This document shows positions 25,777 to 35,570 of a stretch of DNA of 64,000 nucleotides, piece by piece. This DNA is from Verrucomicrobiota bacterium (GTDB lineage: Bacteria > Verrucomicrobiota > Verrucomicrobiia > Verrucomicrobiales > DEV007), in contig JAHDID010000012.1 of NCBI GenBank assembly GCA_020630975.1, positions 23,216 through 87,215 of the forward strand. The letters are read 5' to 3'. Within the stretch, counting starts at the first letter, position 1; each line of letters starts with the position of its first letter. Below the pieces are notes generated by a model that did not search any database, was not told the DNA's origin, and saw only the letters and a program-made list of their open reading frames with translations. Made by a program: the position numbers and the translations under genes.

Positions 25777-25905
25777 ACTTAGCAGTCGATGGCCCTGCCA
25801 GCAACTGGTAAGTTGCAGGGGTTTTGGGTTCACACAGTTTTAGGGATGCGTTTTGTGTCTGCATTTTGCTTGCACTTCTACGGTGGCATTATCCATTCTA
25901 AAATC

Positions 25906-27105
25906 ATGACTGCAGAAGACATCCGCTGCTCGAACGACCTCTCCATGTACCAGCGGCTGCGCGAGCACCGCGATGTGAAACGGGTGAATGAGCTGATCGC
26001 CGAAGCTGAAGAAGAAGGCCCGACAGGCATCCGTAGAAATCTACTAGCTACCTCGGTACGGTTGACGGAGCGGATGGCTCCGAGCATCGCCAAGATGGCA
26101 GACGAGTGTGTCGATCTGCTCGGTGTGGAGATGCCGGTGGAGATCTATGTCTACTCCAGCCCACAGTTCAATGCCGCGTGTTTCAAGCCGGAGGAGGATC
26201 GGGTGTACGTCATGTTTTCCTCCGCATTGTTGGAGGGATTCACCGAGCCGGAATTGCGCTTTGTCATGGGCCACGAGCTCGGGCACCACGTCTACGATCA
26301 CCACGGTATACCGATCGGCTACCTGCTAAAAGGGCAGTCGCGGCCAGATCCGGCGCTGGCGTTGGATCTTTTCTCTTGGTCGCGCTACGCCGAGATATCG
26401 GCCGATCGAGCGGGCGCGCACTGTGCTCAGGATATGGGTGCGGTGGCCAAGTCGTTGTTTAAATTATCCTCCGGACTCACATCAAAGATCGTCGAGTTCA
26501 GTCTGGATGATTTCGTCGCTCAGGTCGATGATATGGAGGTCGGTGATCAAGAGCCTGGTCAGGGATCGTCGCAGAGCGATTGGTTTTCCACCCATCCCTT
26601 TAGCCCGCTGCGAGTGAAGGCGCTGAAGCTGTTTGAGGATTCGGAGATTTACCAGAAAGGCAAAGTCAGCAAAGCCGATCTCGAGCTGGGTGTGCAGTCG
26701 GTCCTGAGCCTGATGGAGCCTAGCTATCTCGATGCCAATACCGGCACGGGCGAGACCATGCGACGTATGCTATTTGCCGGGCTGCTGGCGGTGGCGGATG
26801 CCCATGGCGGTATCAGCGAGGAGGAGCTGGAGATTTTTGAGAAGTTCTTTGGAAAATATGCCTTCAGCGACAAGCTCGATGTGGCAAAAATCAAAGCGCG
26901 TCTCGACGATCGGGTGCTGGAGGTGAAGAAAAAAGCCTCGCAGACACAGGCCATGCAAGTGCTGCGCGATATCTGTACCATCGCCAAAGCAGACGGCGGT
27001 GTGCAGGCGAGCGAGCGCAAGGTGCTGAATCACATCGCTAAGCTGCTGGATCTGCCCACATCGTTTGTGGTGCAGGCGCTGGATGTGGCGGTGGAGCTGG
27101 ATTAG
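25906..27105 (+). CDS. M48-family metallopeptidase fused to a TerB-like domain
   Basis: 399 aa from ATG 25906; the frame is open to 25789, but the conserved part begins after 25906. The zinc motif HELGH (123-127) sits in RFVMGHELGHHVYDHHG, with the third ligand Glu163 in YAEISADRAG, as in M48 peptidases. M48 proteins usually have membrane helices, but none is evident here. Residues about 285-399 (LLAVADAHGGISEEELEIF and ICTIAKADGGVQASERKVL) form a paired-acidic-helix TerB-like domain known from tellurite/stress-response proteins. The fusion suggests a soluble, possibly metal- or stress-responsive protease; substrate unknown. Confidence 0.85.
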   Translation: MTAEDIRCSNDLSMYQRLREHRDVKRVNELIAEAEEEGPTGIRRNLLATSVRLTERMAPSIAKMADECVDLLGVEMPVEIYVYSSPQFNAACFKPEEDRVYVMFSSALLEGFTEPELRFVMGHELGHHVYDHHGIPIGYLLKGQSRPDPALALDLFSWSRYAEISADRAGAHCAQDMGAVAKSLFKLSSGLTSKIVEFSLDDFVAQVDDMEVGDQEPGQGSSQSDWFSTHPFSPLRVKALKLFEDSEIYQKGKVSKADLELGVQSVLSLMEPSYLDANTGTGETMRRMLFAGLLAVADAHGGISEEELEIFEKFFGKYAFSDKLDVAKIKARLDDRVLEVKKKASQTQAMQVLRDICTIAKADGGVQASERKVLNHIAKLLDLPTSFVVQALDVAVELD

Positions 27106-31651: not shown

Positions 31652-32008
31652 ATGGCAAAAGTCACCATCTACCACAATCCTCACTGAGGCTCTTCGAAGA
31701 ATGCTCTCGCGGTCGCGGATGAGCTGGGTGTCGACTATGAAGTCGTGCTTTACATGAAAACTCCACCCGATCGCGAGGCGCTGCAGGCGATCGTGGACGG
31801 TCTGGAGGACCCCGTAGAGGATCTGGTGAGAAAAGATTCGGTATTTAAAAAACTCGAACTCAATCCTGATGACTTTGTCGGCAATGCCGAGGCAGTGATC
31901 GACATTCTGCTGCAGAAAAAAGCTCTGCTGCAGCGTCCGGTCGTGGTGAAGGGGAAGAAAGCCATCATTGGCCGTCCCAAAACTCGGATCGCTGAGCTGC
32001 TAGGATAG
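31652..32008 (+). CDS. arsC: ArsC-family arsenate reductase with in-frame TGA (selenocysteine) at the catalytic position
   Basis: Read from ATG 31652 (an in-frame ATG also exists at 31622), this is a full-length 118-aa glutaredoxin-dependent ArsC protein. Codon 12, at 31685-31687, is TGA exactly where the catalytic Cys12 of plasmid R773 ArsC lies: YHNPH-U-GSSKN. All other catalytic residues are kept: His8, Arg60 (LVRKD), Arg95 (LLQRPVVV) and Arg108 (IIGRP). Their numbering is identical or within one of R773 (His8, Arg60, Arg94, Arg107). The frame after TGA is intact to TAG 32006-32008, and a hairpin with a GGUC loop follows the TGA. I read it as a selenoprotein. A nonsense-mutated gene is the alternative, and Sec machinery is not in this window. 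Confidence 0.8.
31703..31724 (+). promoter_or_regulatory. Candidate bacterial SECIS hairpin
   Basis: GCTC (31703-31706) pairs with GAGC (31721-31724), and CGC (31708-31710) pairs with GCG (31715-31717), leaving the apical loop GGUC (31711-31714) with small internal bulges. The loop guanines lie 24-25 nt after the TGA, inside the 16-37 nt window described for bacterial SECIS elements. A GGUC loop resembles the GGUCU loop of E. coli fdhF. The short, bulged stem makes this suggestive rather than certain. Confidence 0.5.
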
Positions 32009-32020
32009 TTATCTGGCCGC

Positions 32021-33733
32021 CTACCTAGAGTGATCAGGTGTCAGCTCGACTTTAGAAGACCCTTCGACTGTTCGGTTGCGATTGTCGATCGAGCGGTACT
32101 CGAAGGAGTCCGAGGATGGCACTGCGATCTGCTCAAGGTCGAAGGTCATATTGTGAGAGCCTGGACCTGCATCATTGAGGCTGCCGACTCGGATCGTTTT
32201 GGTGGTGAATTTATCACTGGGGATGGTGCCATCGGCTTGGAAACCGAGATCTTTCAAGCCCATGCCGCTGATGCGATCGTAGCCACCGCCAGTGTTCATC
32301 TTATTGGTGGGACCGCCTTTTCCAGGGATCACTTGTTGGCCTGCCCAGGTGGCTACCACCTCTGTCGAATTTGGTTTGATCACGACTGAGAAAGACATAG
32401 GCGATGCGTCCACCCATGGGCGGTAGCGTAGACCTCTGTTTTGGTAGGCATCACCCTGAGTGACGACGTAGTCGATTTTGTCATCGCCATTGAGATCGAT
32501 AGCGATCGAGTCGTCGTAAGTACCGCCGATATTCAGCTCGAAGGCGAGTTGGTTGCCCGGGAGTTTTTTGCCTTTCATACCATTGAAGTAGAGGGCTCGA
32601 GCATCGTAGCGCTGGTCGAGATTGGCAGTGGTGCTCACCTCTGGGTCTAGCCATTGCACGTTGTCTGCCACTTTGATCTGGGAGCTGTACTCCACGAGTG
32701 TCGCGTCGAAGTCCACAGTGCCATCATCATTGAGCGTGACCACCGCACCGCTATCTAGAGTAAGCGCCTGTCCGGGTGAGATTTTTTGCCATTCGCCGCC
32801 TGCTTTTAAGTGAGTGATACGTAGATCGTCTCCGCCATCGTTTGCCAGCACATCTAGGCCGTCGGTATCTCCGACTGATACTTCATACTCATCGTCACTA
32901 GCGAATGGGTTGGAACCTACGAGACCGAGAGAAACTCGTCGAGTGATCTCCTCCCCCTTGCTATTGGTAAAGGTGACATCAAATTCTTCGTCAGCCTTTT
33001 TGCCATGGTCTAGAGCGGCTAGGTCTTTGCTCGCCTCGTAGAGAAATTTTCCGTTGCCGAGCGAGGCTAGTTCGGAACCACTCTCCAGCTTGTTTATGGA
33101 TTTGACATCCTGACCATTGATCTTTGTCACTCTCGCGAAGTCGTCGCCTTCGTAGTCTTTAGCTAAGTTGAGTTTGGTAAAAGTGGAGCTGTCGGCCCGT
33201 TCATTACCCTCTTCTGAGAAAGAACTGGCTGAGCGGTAGTCTGGGCGCCAGTTAAGAGCAGCTAAGTCTTGAGTTTCTTCATTGCTGTCTCCATCCAGTG
33301 CTACAGGTATGGGGTCGGAGGCGAATAGCCCTGTTCCATCTAGTCCATCTACGCCGGTGAAAGCAAGATTGCCATTGGGGTCAAAGACTAAGAACTCACT
33401 GGCAGCGACCTGGTCTTTGATCGATAGGCCAGGTACTTGAAACACCTCTCCTGCGAATATACTATCGGCGGCGCCTTCTTTTCCCTCCACCATGGCGCGT
33501 ATGGTCGCCAGTTTATCATTTGTTGTATTAAACTGAATACCCGCAGCACTAGCTGCAGAAGCAATGTTAGCGATCTGCTTGGCGTTGGCCATTGCCGCGT
33601 TTTTTCGAGAGGTCTTATTGACCTTGGTAATCGATGGGACTGCTATCGCTGCAATCACGCCAATCACCGCAATTACGATGAGCATCTCGACTAACGAGAA
33701 TCCAAGGCGTTTTGTTGGGTTAGTTGCCTGCAT
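32021..33733 (-). CDS. Giant type IV pilin-like protein (pseudopilin), 570 aa
   Basis: The prepilin signature is KRLGFSLVEMLIVIAVIGVI (cleavage before Phe12), with Glu at +5 and a hydrophobic N-helix. Ordinary pseudopilins are 130-250 aa. Residues about 30-260 are shared with the neighbouring pilin gene (IQFNTTNDKLATIRAMVEG, FDPNGNLAFTGVDG). The remaining about 300 residues are unique: a VCBS/Ig-like segment (DDEYEVSVGDTDGLDVLAND) and a beta-rich module (SIAIDLNGDDKIDYVVTQGD). Exported by a type II secretion or type IV pilus system not present here. The C-terminal module may bind surfaces or glycans. Confidence 0.85.
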   Translation of the reverse strand: MQATNPTKRLGFSLVEMLIVIAVIGVIAAIAVPSITKVNKTSRKNAAMANAKQIANIASAASAAGIQFNTTNDKLATIRAMVEGKEGAADSIFAGEVFQVPGLSIKDQVAASEFLVFDPNGNLAFTGVDGLDGTGLFASDPIPVALDGDSNEETQDLAALNWRPDYRSASSFSEEGNERADSSTFTKLNLAKDYEGDDFARVTKINGQDVKSINKLESGSELASLGNGKFLYEASKDLAALDHGKKADEEFDVTFTNSKGEEITRRVSLGLVGSNPFASDDEYEVSVGDTDGLDVLANDGGDDLRITHLKAGGEWQKISPGQALTLDSGAVVTLNDDGTVDFDATLVEYSSQIKVADNVQWLDPEVSTTANLDQRYDARALYFNGMKGKKLPGNQLAFELNIGGTYDDSIAIDLNGDDKIDYVVTQGDAYQNRGLRYRPWVDASPMSFSVVIKPNSTEVVATWAGQQVIPGKGGPTNKMNTGGGYDRISGMGLKDLGFQADGTIPSDKFTTKTIRVGSLNDAGPGSHNMTFDLEQIAVPSSDSFEYRSIDNRNRTVEGSSKVELTPDHSR

Positions 33734-33794
33734 ATGATGTTAAGTTAGATTGTTCCTATACCAGTTGATTGATCGTGTAAGGGCAGGGATGCTC

Positions 33795-35570
33795 CTAGAA
33801 GAGTTTGACGTTATCTATATCAAAGTCGAGTAGCTTGCCTTCGGTGTGTGTGAATCGGATCGTCATCTGGCTCTCAGATGCGGTGAAGCCTATTTTTGTC
33901 TCGACCAATCCTTCTTTCTTATCTTGAGAGACTTCTTCGCTGAATACAGAGGAACCGCTGGAGTCTAGTACATCCAGCATCAAGCTTGCCTTTCCAAGGC
34001 CCCAGCGTATGCGAGTATCGAAAGTGAGGACATAAGTGGCACCGGGTTCTAGTATTACATCCTGACTGAGTGTCATACCAGTGGCGCTAGACCAGCCGCC
34101 GAGAGCGACGTATTGATTGCCATCGGAGGCGCGCGAGGTACTGCGGTGTAGACCGCCTCGGTTTGGTGGGCCGCCGATCGTCCAGTCAGCTGGGGCCACA
34201 TGGGGGCTACCCGACCAGATGCTATCTTGGAATGAGCCGTTTTTGATTCGGTCGATTTTTTCGGAGCTAGGTGCGAGGGTGACATTGTCGAGGTCGAGGT
34301 CGAGAGCCTTGCCCTCGGTATGTGTGAAATGCACTGTCATTTCTTCGGAAGATGCGACAAAATCGATATAGCGGTTTTGCTTACCTTCTGGCTTTTCGAT
34401 AAAGAATTCCTCCGATGCGGCTGCTTTACCATCGTCGCCCAGCATTTGGGCAAGGAGCCCGCCACGTCCTGATCCGTAGTGAATTGCCATGTCAAAGGCC
34501 AAGCGGTAAGTACTACCGACTTCGAGTTCTACTCCTTGACTTAGAGTCAGCCCTGTCCGGCTAGACCAGCCTCCCAGTGGCATATACTGTTCCCCATCAG
34601 AGGCTCTACCTGCACTGCGATGCAGGCCGCCACTGCCAGCAGGGCCTCCTAAGGTCCAGCCGACAGGAGTTTCCGTTCTGCCGCCTCTGTATGGCGAGTC
34701 CTCGAATGAACCATTCTGGAGCAGGCCATCCCCAGGTGCTGCCTGGGAACCCACTAACCCTAGGCTGATCACTTGTTCGGTTTCATTGCCCTCATCATCC
34801 ACGTAGGTAGCGGTGAAAGTATCGTTACTCTTCACACCAGCTTCCAGTCCTGCTAGCCCCTCGTTAGCTTCGTATAGGAATTTACCACCGCCTAGGCTCT
34901 GGAGTTTTGATCCACTGTTTAGTGTGTTAGTTGATTGCACGTCTTGGCCGTTGATCTTGGTTAGTCTCACATTCCCTTCACCTGCATAGTCGTTTAGCAG
35001 ATTGAGTTTAGTGAACTTGGAGGCATCAGCACGCTCATTGCCTTCTTCGGAGAATGAACTAGCAGATTGGTACTCAGGTCTCCAATTGAGGACCGAGGGG
35101 TCTTGTGATCTGTCGCTGCTAGTATTGCCGCCACCATTCAGAGCTACAGGGATCGGATTTTGAGAAATCACGGGGTTGCTATCGAAGCCATCGACTCCAG
35201 TGAAAGCCAGATTACCATTGGGGTCGAATTCTAGGAACTCGGCAGCTGCTAGCTGCTCTTTCACGGTCAGACCGGGAACTTGGAAGAGCTCGTCGGCAAA
35301 GATACTTTCAGCATCGCCCTTGCGGCCCTCTACCATAGCCCGGATTGTTCGCAGTTTATCGTTGGTAGTGTTGAACTGGACTCCGGCAGCGCTAGCTGCG
35401 GCGGCGACATTAGCGATCTGTTTGGCGTTAGCCATCGCGGTGCTTTTCCTGGAATTCTTGTTCACCTTCGAAATTGAGGGCACTGCTATCGCCGCGATGA
35501 CACCGATCACAGCAATGACGACTAGCATTTCAACAAGAGAAAATCCGGGGGATTTGCGGTAGTATCTCAT
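33795..35570 (-). CDS. Giant type IV pilin-like protein with duplicated C-terminal domain, 591 aa
   Basis: Prepilin motif SPGFSLVEMLVVIAVIGVI with cleavage before Phe10. The N-terminal about 280 residues are closely similar to the adjacent 32021-33733 product, so the two are tandem paralogs. The C-terminal part is different: two copies of a roughly 150-residue beta-sandwich (about 285-435 and 440-591). Each contains a GW.LGGP or DWTIGGP motif, GLHRS..RASDG.QY, LGGWSS.TG.TLSQ and FTHTEGK.LD.D.DN. This resembles secreted carbohydrate-binding-like or DUF642-type domains. The 61-bp gap allows co-transcription, with this gene first. Confidence 0.85.
   Translation of the reverse strand: MRYYRKSPGFSLVEMLVVIAVIGVIAAIAVPSISKVNKNSRKSTAMANAKQIANVAAAASAAGVQFNTTNDKLRTIRAMVEGRKGDAESIFADELFQVPGLTVKEQLAAAEFLEFDPNGNLAFTGVDGFDSNPVISQNPIPVALNGGGNTSSDRSQDPSVLNWRPEYQSASSFSEEGNERADASKFTKLNLLNDYAGEGNVRLTKINGQDVQSTNTLNSGSKLQSLGGGKFLYEANEGLAGLEAGVKSNDTFTATYVDDEGNETEQVISLGLVGSQAAPGDGLLQNGSFEDSPYRGGRTETPVGWTLGGPAGSGGLHRSAGRASDGEQYMPLGGWSSRTGLTLSQGVELEVGSTYRLAFDMAIHYGSGRGGLLAQMLGDDGKAAASEEFFIEKPEGKQNRYIDFVASSEEMTVHFTHTEGKALDLDLDNVTLAPSSEKIDRIKNGSFQDSIWSGSPHVAPADWTIGGPPNRGGLHRSTSRASDGNQYVALGGWSSATGMTLSQDVILEPGATYVLTFDTRIRWGLGKASLMLDVLDSSGSSVFSEEVSQDKKEGLVETKIGFTASESQMTIRFTHTEGKLLDFDIDNVKLF

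Follow-up and report, generated by a model that had tools for sequence, protein, structure and literature searches.

Selenocysteine-containing (Sec) proteins of the arsenate reductase family ArsC with a UxxS motif have been known since 2005, and the gene described here is not of a new kind. The relevant passages of the Sargasso Sea report of 2005 (PMC1088965) describe 14 Sec arsenate reductases of COG1393, with the motif UXXS and a figure of the SECIS. In those of the GOS report of 2008 (PMC2398784), 77 proteins named 'ArsC 1' (pfam03960, UxxS) are counted, together with 42 proteins of a second type with the motif UxxC. The Sec-ArsC family, with MBT3519430.1 as exemplar, is listed in the corresponding parts of two reviews, published in 2022 (PMC9312934) and 2026 (PMC13188914). 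According to the more recent one, in the part that deals with these families, bioinformatics accounts for the discovery of almost all such proteins, whose functions are largely uncharacterised. An earlier sequence-only reading of the locus studied here, made by a model, had mentioned arsenate-reductase-like selenoproteins from marine metagenomes, in agreement with the Sargasso Sea and GOS reports. Our search of the literature on selenoproteins and selenocysteine, with the name stems Acidimicrobi and Verrucomicrobi, returned no title devoted to a Sec-ArsC gene.

The locus lies in a stretch of 64,000 nucleotides (the window) from a genome of the order Verrucomicrobiales, contig JAHDID010000012.1. 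As far as the published passages describe the known Sec-ArsC proteins (COG1393/TIGR00014, UxxS), the window protein shares with them the ArsC family, Sec in a UxxS motif and a SECIS just after the UGA. It differs in that its genome is assembled and contains the Sec machinery, and in that its relatives can be named; the two are compared by description. The passages on NF041106 (PMC13188914) and on the GOS 'arsenate reductase 2' also describe an ArsC-like protein with Sec, but their motif is UxxC and that of the window gene is UxxS. NF041106 was not among the NCBIfam matches of the 16 rows searched at E <= 0.001. With E. coli R773-type ArsC (1i9d, 1jzw) the window protein has in common the fold (Z 13.5) and the alignment of His8, position 12 and three arginines, whereas it has Sec for Cys12, no cysteine, about 33% identity, no ars gene recognised among its six nearest neighbours and a score below the TIGR00014 cut-off. 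Beyond what the published passages contain, this study adds a lineage placement (Verrucomicrobiales, Acidimicrobiia and one Pirellulaceae), a proposed cross-phylum transfer, several Sec/Cys switches and a SECIS with covariation. A selenoprotein catalogued at first from metagenome reads is now tied to assembled genomes with the full Sec machinery, and provides a compact test case for the readability of a SECIS after cross-phylum transfer and for the frequency of catalytic Sec/Cys interchange. Our explanation of the locus as a whole, to which we give a probability of roughly 0.8, is that it encodes an ArsC-family selenoprotein with Sec12 as sole redox residue, a proposed arsenate chemistry and an origin in an Acidimicrobiia-type lineage.

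An ArsC-family frame with a single internal UGA

The ArsC-family frame comprises 118 codons and a TAG stop codon (32006-32008), starts with ATG at 31652 on the forward strand and is intact once the TGA at 31685-31687, its sole internal stop, is read through. The coordinates and the translation given in the sequence-only reading, YHNPH-U-GSSKN around the Sec, were confirmed, and His8, Arg60, Arg95 and Arg108 are found at the positions that it had claimed. We assign the roles of these four residues by assumption from R773 ArsC. The features of the coding sequence are as follows.

31652-32008, forward strand: predicted ArsC-family selenoprotein gene (118 residues, Sec at 12; Pfam match; start and length conserved across orthologs)
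31673-31675, forward strand: codon of His8, presumed active-site neighbour of residue 12 (invariant, 46/46 orthologs)
31685-31687, forward strand: UGA codon 12, very probably read as Sec, corresponding to the catalytic Cys12 of R773-type ArsC (TGA in orthologs and public relatives)
31829-31831, forward strand: codon of Arg60, presumed oxyanion-binding (45/46; alignment to R773 ArsC 1jzw and 1i9d)
31934-31936, forward strand: codon of Arg95, Arg94 of R773 ArsC (46/46; alignment)
31973-31975, forward strand: codon of Arg108, Arg107 of R773 ArsC (46/46; alignment)

With C written for U, the window protein reaches 56.1 bits against Pfam ArsC (PF03960, cut-off 24), and thus belongs to the family. 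Its top NCBIfam model is arsC (glutaredoxin), TIGR00014, with 95.6 bits, below the equivalog cut-off of 106.05. The protein aligns end to end with E. coli ArsC (1jzw, 1i9d) and with other solved arsenate reductases; the TGA falls on Cys12, and the UxxS motif (U-G-S-S) thus sits at the ArsC catalytic cysteine position. An AlphaFold2 model (16 rows, mean pLDDT 90.5) has as top solved matches 3f0i (Z 14.5, rmsd 2.3, 115 residues) and 3rdw (Z 14.1). The match with E. coli ArsC 1i9d (Z 13.5, rmsd 2.3, 114 residues) is accompanied by one with Spx 3gfk (Z 14.0, rmsd 2.4, 113 residues); since Spx structures match almost equally well, the fold alone cannot choose the function. A mechanical ORF listing yields only an 87-codon piece of the gene, from GTG at 31745 to 32008. 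Such truncation could mean that Sec-ArsC genes are undercounted in Verrucomicrobiota and Acidimicrobiia.

Conservation of the UGA codon and selection on the gene

Among 288 genomes of the order, 58 have a match, and 46 full-length orthologs were obtained, the window gene included. The 45 others are 67-80% identical to the window protein, and each of the 46 genes has exactly one internal TGA, which is codon 12 in all of them. A 47th genome (G039) contains a fragment, and the remaining 11 matching genomes have distant relatives without TGA (identity <=34%). Four of 50 loci were excluded from the ortholog set: two Cys forms (L067 and L068) and two fragments (L069 and L070), both with TGA at codon 12, L069 reaching a stop after codon 46. 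The scan of public genomes gave 211 relatives; of the best 80, all 80 likewise have TGA as codon 12. Eighteen of them share their contigs with genomes of the order, and the 126 records correspond to 108 distinct genes (public part: best 80 of 211), namely 52 verrucomicrobial genes, 55 acidimicrobial or otherwise non-verrucomicrobial ones and one from Pirellulaceae. The homolog alignment proposed in the sequence-only reading thus finds Sec in all close relatives examined.

Codons outside position 12 are under purifying selection, with a median dN/dS of 0.09 for the 501 of 1035 pairs that gave values (534 gave none, and many pairs were saturated) and 0.16 for the 33 pairs whose dS is below 1. 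His8, Arg95 and Arg108 are invariant in the 46 orthologs, and Arg60 is found in 45. The exception is L041 (G155), in which Arg60 is replaced by Cys, possibly by error as the contig of L041 is only 3 kb long. No cysteine is present anywhere in the window protein. Only two of the 108 distinct Sec-ArsC rows have one, L041 (at position 60) and L048 (at position 100), and Sec12 is therefore normally the sole redox residue.

It could be argued that the gene is a Cys-type arsC disrupted by a nonsense mutation or a sequencing error. The one point in favour of a pseudogene or error is that the codon is a stop in table 11. Against it stand the same TGA in all 126 records (108 distinct genes, the public part being the best 80 of 211), the purifying selection and the covarying SECIS described below, and we regard this explanation as extremely improbable. 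The sequence-only reading had likewise judged a chance nonsense mutation at precisely this codon improbable, and the 46 orthologs and 80 public relatives bear it out.

A SECIS hairpin supported by comparison

The sequence-only reading had also noted a hairpin with a GGUC apical loop 15 nt past the TGA. Two further features are proposed within the gene.

31703-31724, forward strand: putative bacterial-type SECIS hairpin within the coding sequence (fold -7.8 kcal/mol; 7-bp consensus stem with covariation)
31711-31714, forward strand: apical loop GGUC of the putative SECIS (last base of codon 20, followed by codon 21)

The hairpin, with G in its apical loop, is thus placed just downstream of the UGA as expected of a SECIS. 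It folds as had been described; its energy, taken by itself, is no better than that of shuffled sequences (z -1.09 for 25 nt, -0.16 for 45 nt and -0.44 for 54 nt). We therefore dropped hairpin energy alone as evidence for a SECIS. No Rfam family matched the SECIS region at E <= 1.

Comparison of the genes was informative. Codon 21 is GTC and codon 20 ends in G in 108/108 distinct genes (public part: best 80 of 211). In the 46 orthologs, where codon 21 is GTC throughout, codon 20 is GCG in 42 of 42 cases of Ala, where codon use in the rest of the genes predicts about 0.4, and the choice of codons 17-19 and 22-24 is likewise skewed. The per-codon skew test is not specific by itself, because codons 15, 26 and 33, outside the stem, are skewed too. 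In 105 distinct stretches, 97.6% of the cells of a seven-pair stem around GGUC are paired. Two-sided changes that keep the pair occur in 25 cells, versus 4.6 +/- 1.9 in shuffles (0/500 as high), and slid versions of the stem have at most 3 cells with a two-sided change. The number of stem pairs with a two-sided change is 3, not above shuffles (2.0; 55/500 as high). A TTA at codon 19 is paired with GCT at codon 22 in 11/11 cases, and the window gene alone combines CTC with GCG, a compensatory change that gives C-G where most genes have G-C. RNAalifold recovers five of the seven stem pairs unprompted. In the hairpin of the window gene, two of the seven consensus pairs are lost (columns 21-36 and 22-35) and the lower stem is a different one: in the minimum-energy form, an outer GCUC/GAGC stem takes their place. 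Covariation and synonymous-site conservation, that is comparison alone, establish that the predicted hairpin is real.

Selenocysteine machinery and co-occurrence with selB

The genes for Sec decoding, the presence of which the sequence-only reading had proposed to check, are all found in the window's genome: selA (522.4 bits, cut-off 267.9), selB (272.6 bits, cut-off 242.25), selD (301.1 bits, cut-off 125) and tRNA-Sec (58.6 bits, gathering score 47), which ARAGORN also reports as tRNA-Sec, with anticodon TCA. The tRNA-Sec score is weak evidence by itself since 5 of 14 control genomes pass the gathering score too. The selD gene forms the second half of a 754-codon frame without internal stop codon (L018 1387-3651, G000:C77). 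From its look, we take the first half to be an NADH-dehydrogenase-like oxidoreductase; the presumed catalytic position of SelD reads Cys.

The distribution of selB follows that of the Sec form. Within the order, selB (E <= 1e-60) was found in 41 of the 47 genomes with Sec-ArsC versus 42 of the 241 others (p 3e-20); five of the six Sec-ArsC genomes without it are 53-83% complete, and the sixth (G132) 95%. Public carriers outside the order have selB in 22 of 24 genomes tested and lack it in two (24 chosen from 56 distinct ones of the best-80-of-211 set). In the class of L073 (a record titled Acidimicrobiales), 100 of 296 genomes have an ArsC relative, 37 with the Sec form and 63 with TGA-free forms only, and selB is present in 37/37 of the former versus 30/63 of the latter (p 5e-9).

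A further reading, that the UGA is translated as another amino acid through a genome-wide code change or a suppressor, found no support. TGA terminates 9 of the 43 ORFs of the window, as a normal stop codon would, which argues against such a reading. When the window was searched for frames interrupted by TGA (8 or more codons upstream of it, 50 or more downstream, and over 60% outside plain ORFs), this gene and one other, partly antisense to it, emerged; the ArsC gene is the only convincing case. Together with the presence of a SECIS and of the Sec machinery, these results make reassignment to another amino acid a very remote prospect. That UGA codon 12 is read as Sec is, on the other hand, very probable from the sequences compared, because the TGA is conserved, the gene is under purifying selection, the SECIS covaries, selA, selB, selD and tRNA-Sec are present, and selB tracks the Sec form. 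The computational checks proposed in the sequence-only reading thus favour Sec, and no observation that it had named as refuting was made. By analogy with established bacterial Sec decoding, SelB with Sec-tRNA would bind the hairpin and insert Sec at the ribosome.

Arsenate or another substrate

All 16 rows compared with NCBIfam match arsC, and all also match the Spx/MgsR and Spx models at weaker E-values. The window protein scores 55.2 bits for Spx/MgsR and 23.6 for the YffB-type model, far below its arsC score. The cut-offs of these models are not reached (TIGR01617, 55.2 versus 75.05 bits; PRK01655, 40.5 versus 123; PRK10853, 23.6 versus 121). Identity is also higher to ArsC structures (30-34%) than to Spx structures (21-26%), and the equivalents of the oxyanion-binding Arg60, Arg94 and Arg107 are present. 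Judging from these sequence features, we would give arsenate slightly better than even odds of being the substrate. The Sec12 selenolate, activated by the pocket of His8 and Ser15, would then attack arsenate held by Arg60, Arg95 and Arg108; a selenol might speed the reaction, as the sequence-only reading had suggested. A low-molecular-weight thiol and a glutaredoxin-like protein would resolve the adduct, with release of arsenite, as in the chemistry of the family. In lineages without glutathione, an equivalent thiol system could take over this step.

The genetic context does not point to arsenic. None of the six nearest neighbours matched an ars family in Pfam, two of the six matching nothing, and no window ORF within 6 kb of the gene in either direction, ArsC itself excepted, matches flank ORFs of the public loci (best 80 of 211 relatives, some of the loci short). 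No Acr3 was found in the window's genome, which is 95.8% complete. An arsenic operon was rejected on these three grounds.

The protein could thus be a selenoprotein without being an arsenate reductase, namely a stand-alone ArsC-fold selenol oxidoreductase that reduces thiols, peroxides or another oxyanion, or an Spx-like redox sensor. Such another selenol chemistry is a serious contender, somewhat short of an even chance. Besides the context just described, it draws on the score below the arsC equivalog cut-off and on the nearly equal match of Spx structures. The usual thiol in Actinomycetota is mycothiol, not glutathione, and many carriers of the gene belong to this phylum, which also fits a function other than arsenate reduction. 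The retention of His8 and of the three oxyanion arginines (Arg60 in 45/46), the large excess of the arsC score over those of the Spx/MgsR and YffB-type models and the higher identity to ArsC structures speak against it, and in favour of arsenate.

Probable transfer between phyla, and Sec/Cys changes

A tree of 216 ArsC proteins, for which column 12 was masked, requires at least six changes between Sec and Cys. This tree includes 67 rows from the class of L073, with weak matches only partly included. A 175-row group with a support of 99 contains each of the 52 verrucomicrobial Sec rows together with the Pirellulaceae row; the rest of the group consists of rows from L073's class and their public relatives. 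A second tree was built from 68 chosen rows, 20 of the 55 acidimicrobial public rows being drawn at random. Here the 12 verrucomicrobial rows and the Pirellulaceae row lie inside the acidimicrobial group (100/99), and the verrucomicrobial Sec rows are apart from the Cys-type ArsC of other Verrucomicrobiota and of Planctomycetes. The protein most similar to that of the window is L071 from Acidimicrobiales (84%).

A scan of 387 genomes from the whole phylum, the order included in part, returned a single Sec gene, that of the window, and TGA-free relatives in 14 genomes. In the class of the Pirellulaceae record, 52 of 297 genomes have a match, and only that of the Pirellulaceae genome has a TGA. 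From the tree placement together with these counts in the phylum and in the Pirellulaceae class, cross-phylum transfer appears as the simplest reading of the verrucomicrobial Sec-ArsC genes inside the acidimicrobial group. An Acidimicrobiia-type lineage is the probable donor to Verrucomicrobiales, and the SECIS would have come over unbroken with the gene. The 80 public records (the best of 211) have titles that describe them as MAG or uncultured, and single genes could be misbinned; misbinning is nevertheless an unlikely cause of the pattern, because the 46 orthologs come from two families within the order. In the neighbouring Sec clade, relatives are found on multi-megabase contigs (G680, G655 and G810).

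The number of entries into Verrucomicrobiales was also considered. The window gene pairs with that of its genus-mate L022 at 83/90 in the 68-row tree, which is not firm, and the free trees separate these two from the other verrucomicrobial genes. Starred branches of the 68-row tree force two label changes, and the Pirellulaceae row falls among the verrucomicrobial genes. In an AU test with 119 rows, the tree in which one verrucomicrobial clade was kept was not rejected and was the likelier (p 0.73). In view of this test, we make no claim of two separate transfers.

Ten Cys rows lie in the 142-row group to which the main Sec family belongs, and nine of them come from genomes without a selB match (G657, G693, G672, G748, G942, G882, G843, G740 and G802); the tenth genome, G928, has selB. 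The nine rows fit a change from Sec to Cys where the machinery is absent, the direction being an assumption. A general rule that Cys forms beside Sec clades lack selB was rejected: it is true for 9/10 rows in the 142-row group, but it fails beside a second Sec group, where the adjoining Cys-form genomes G701, G709, G717, G725, G838 and G668 do have selB. One may go further and imagine a mobile single-gene, Cys-free selenoenzyme of ArsC fold that crosses phyla (from Acidimicrobiia to Verrucomicrobiales and Pirellulaceae) with its own SECIS, relies on the SelB of the host, turns to Cys where there is no selB and, outside arsenic operons, acts on another substrate, either in place of arsenate or in addition to it. 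We consider this extended scenario speculative and rather unlikely.

A second set of Sec-ArsC proteins was observed in the class of L073 (L246, L252 and L257-L265). Its motif is GUG(K/Q/T)(S/A), Cys forms are interspersed among its members, and none of the nine examples inspected has the GGUC loop seen in the window family. This set probably represents an independent Sec lineage with a SECIS of its own.

Relatives in mobile elements and other observations

Relatives in plasmids (3038 records) and phages (9 records) are all below 60% identity, and there is no relative among 15 pattern matches in viral contigs. The closest of the nine phage records is MT836529.1, unverified and from human faeces; the ArsC relative that it encodes (L266 601-948) is 49.6% identical and has Cys and not Sec. 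A phage or plasmid source of the gene was thus rejected.

At the acidimicrobial loci (L071-L149), a gene adjoining ArsC downstream recurs in 14 of 81 loci, and an upstream gene that we take to be PII-like recurs in 12 of 81; none of the recurring neighbours is obviously arsenic-related by eye. Next to the ArsC gene in the window, two adjacent genes on the reverse strand (32021-35570) encode large type IV pilin-like proteins of 570 and 591 aa. Both have N-terminal methylation motifs and their N-terminal halves are similar; the second matches DUF642 and HpiC1-like. Elsewhere in the window, a single protein encoded on the forward strand (25789-27105) matches both peptidase M48 and TerB in Pfam.
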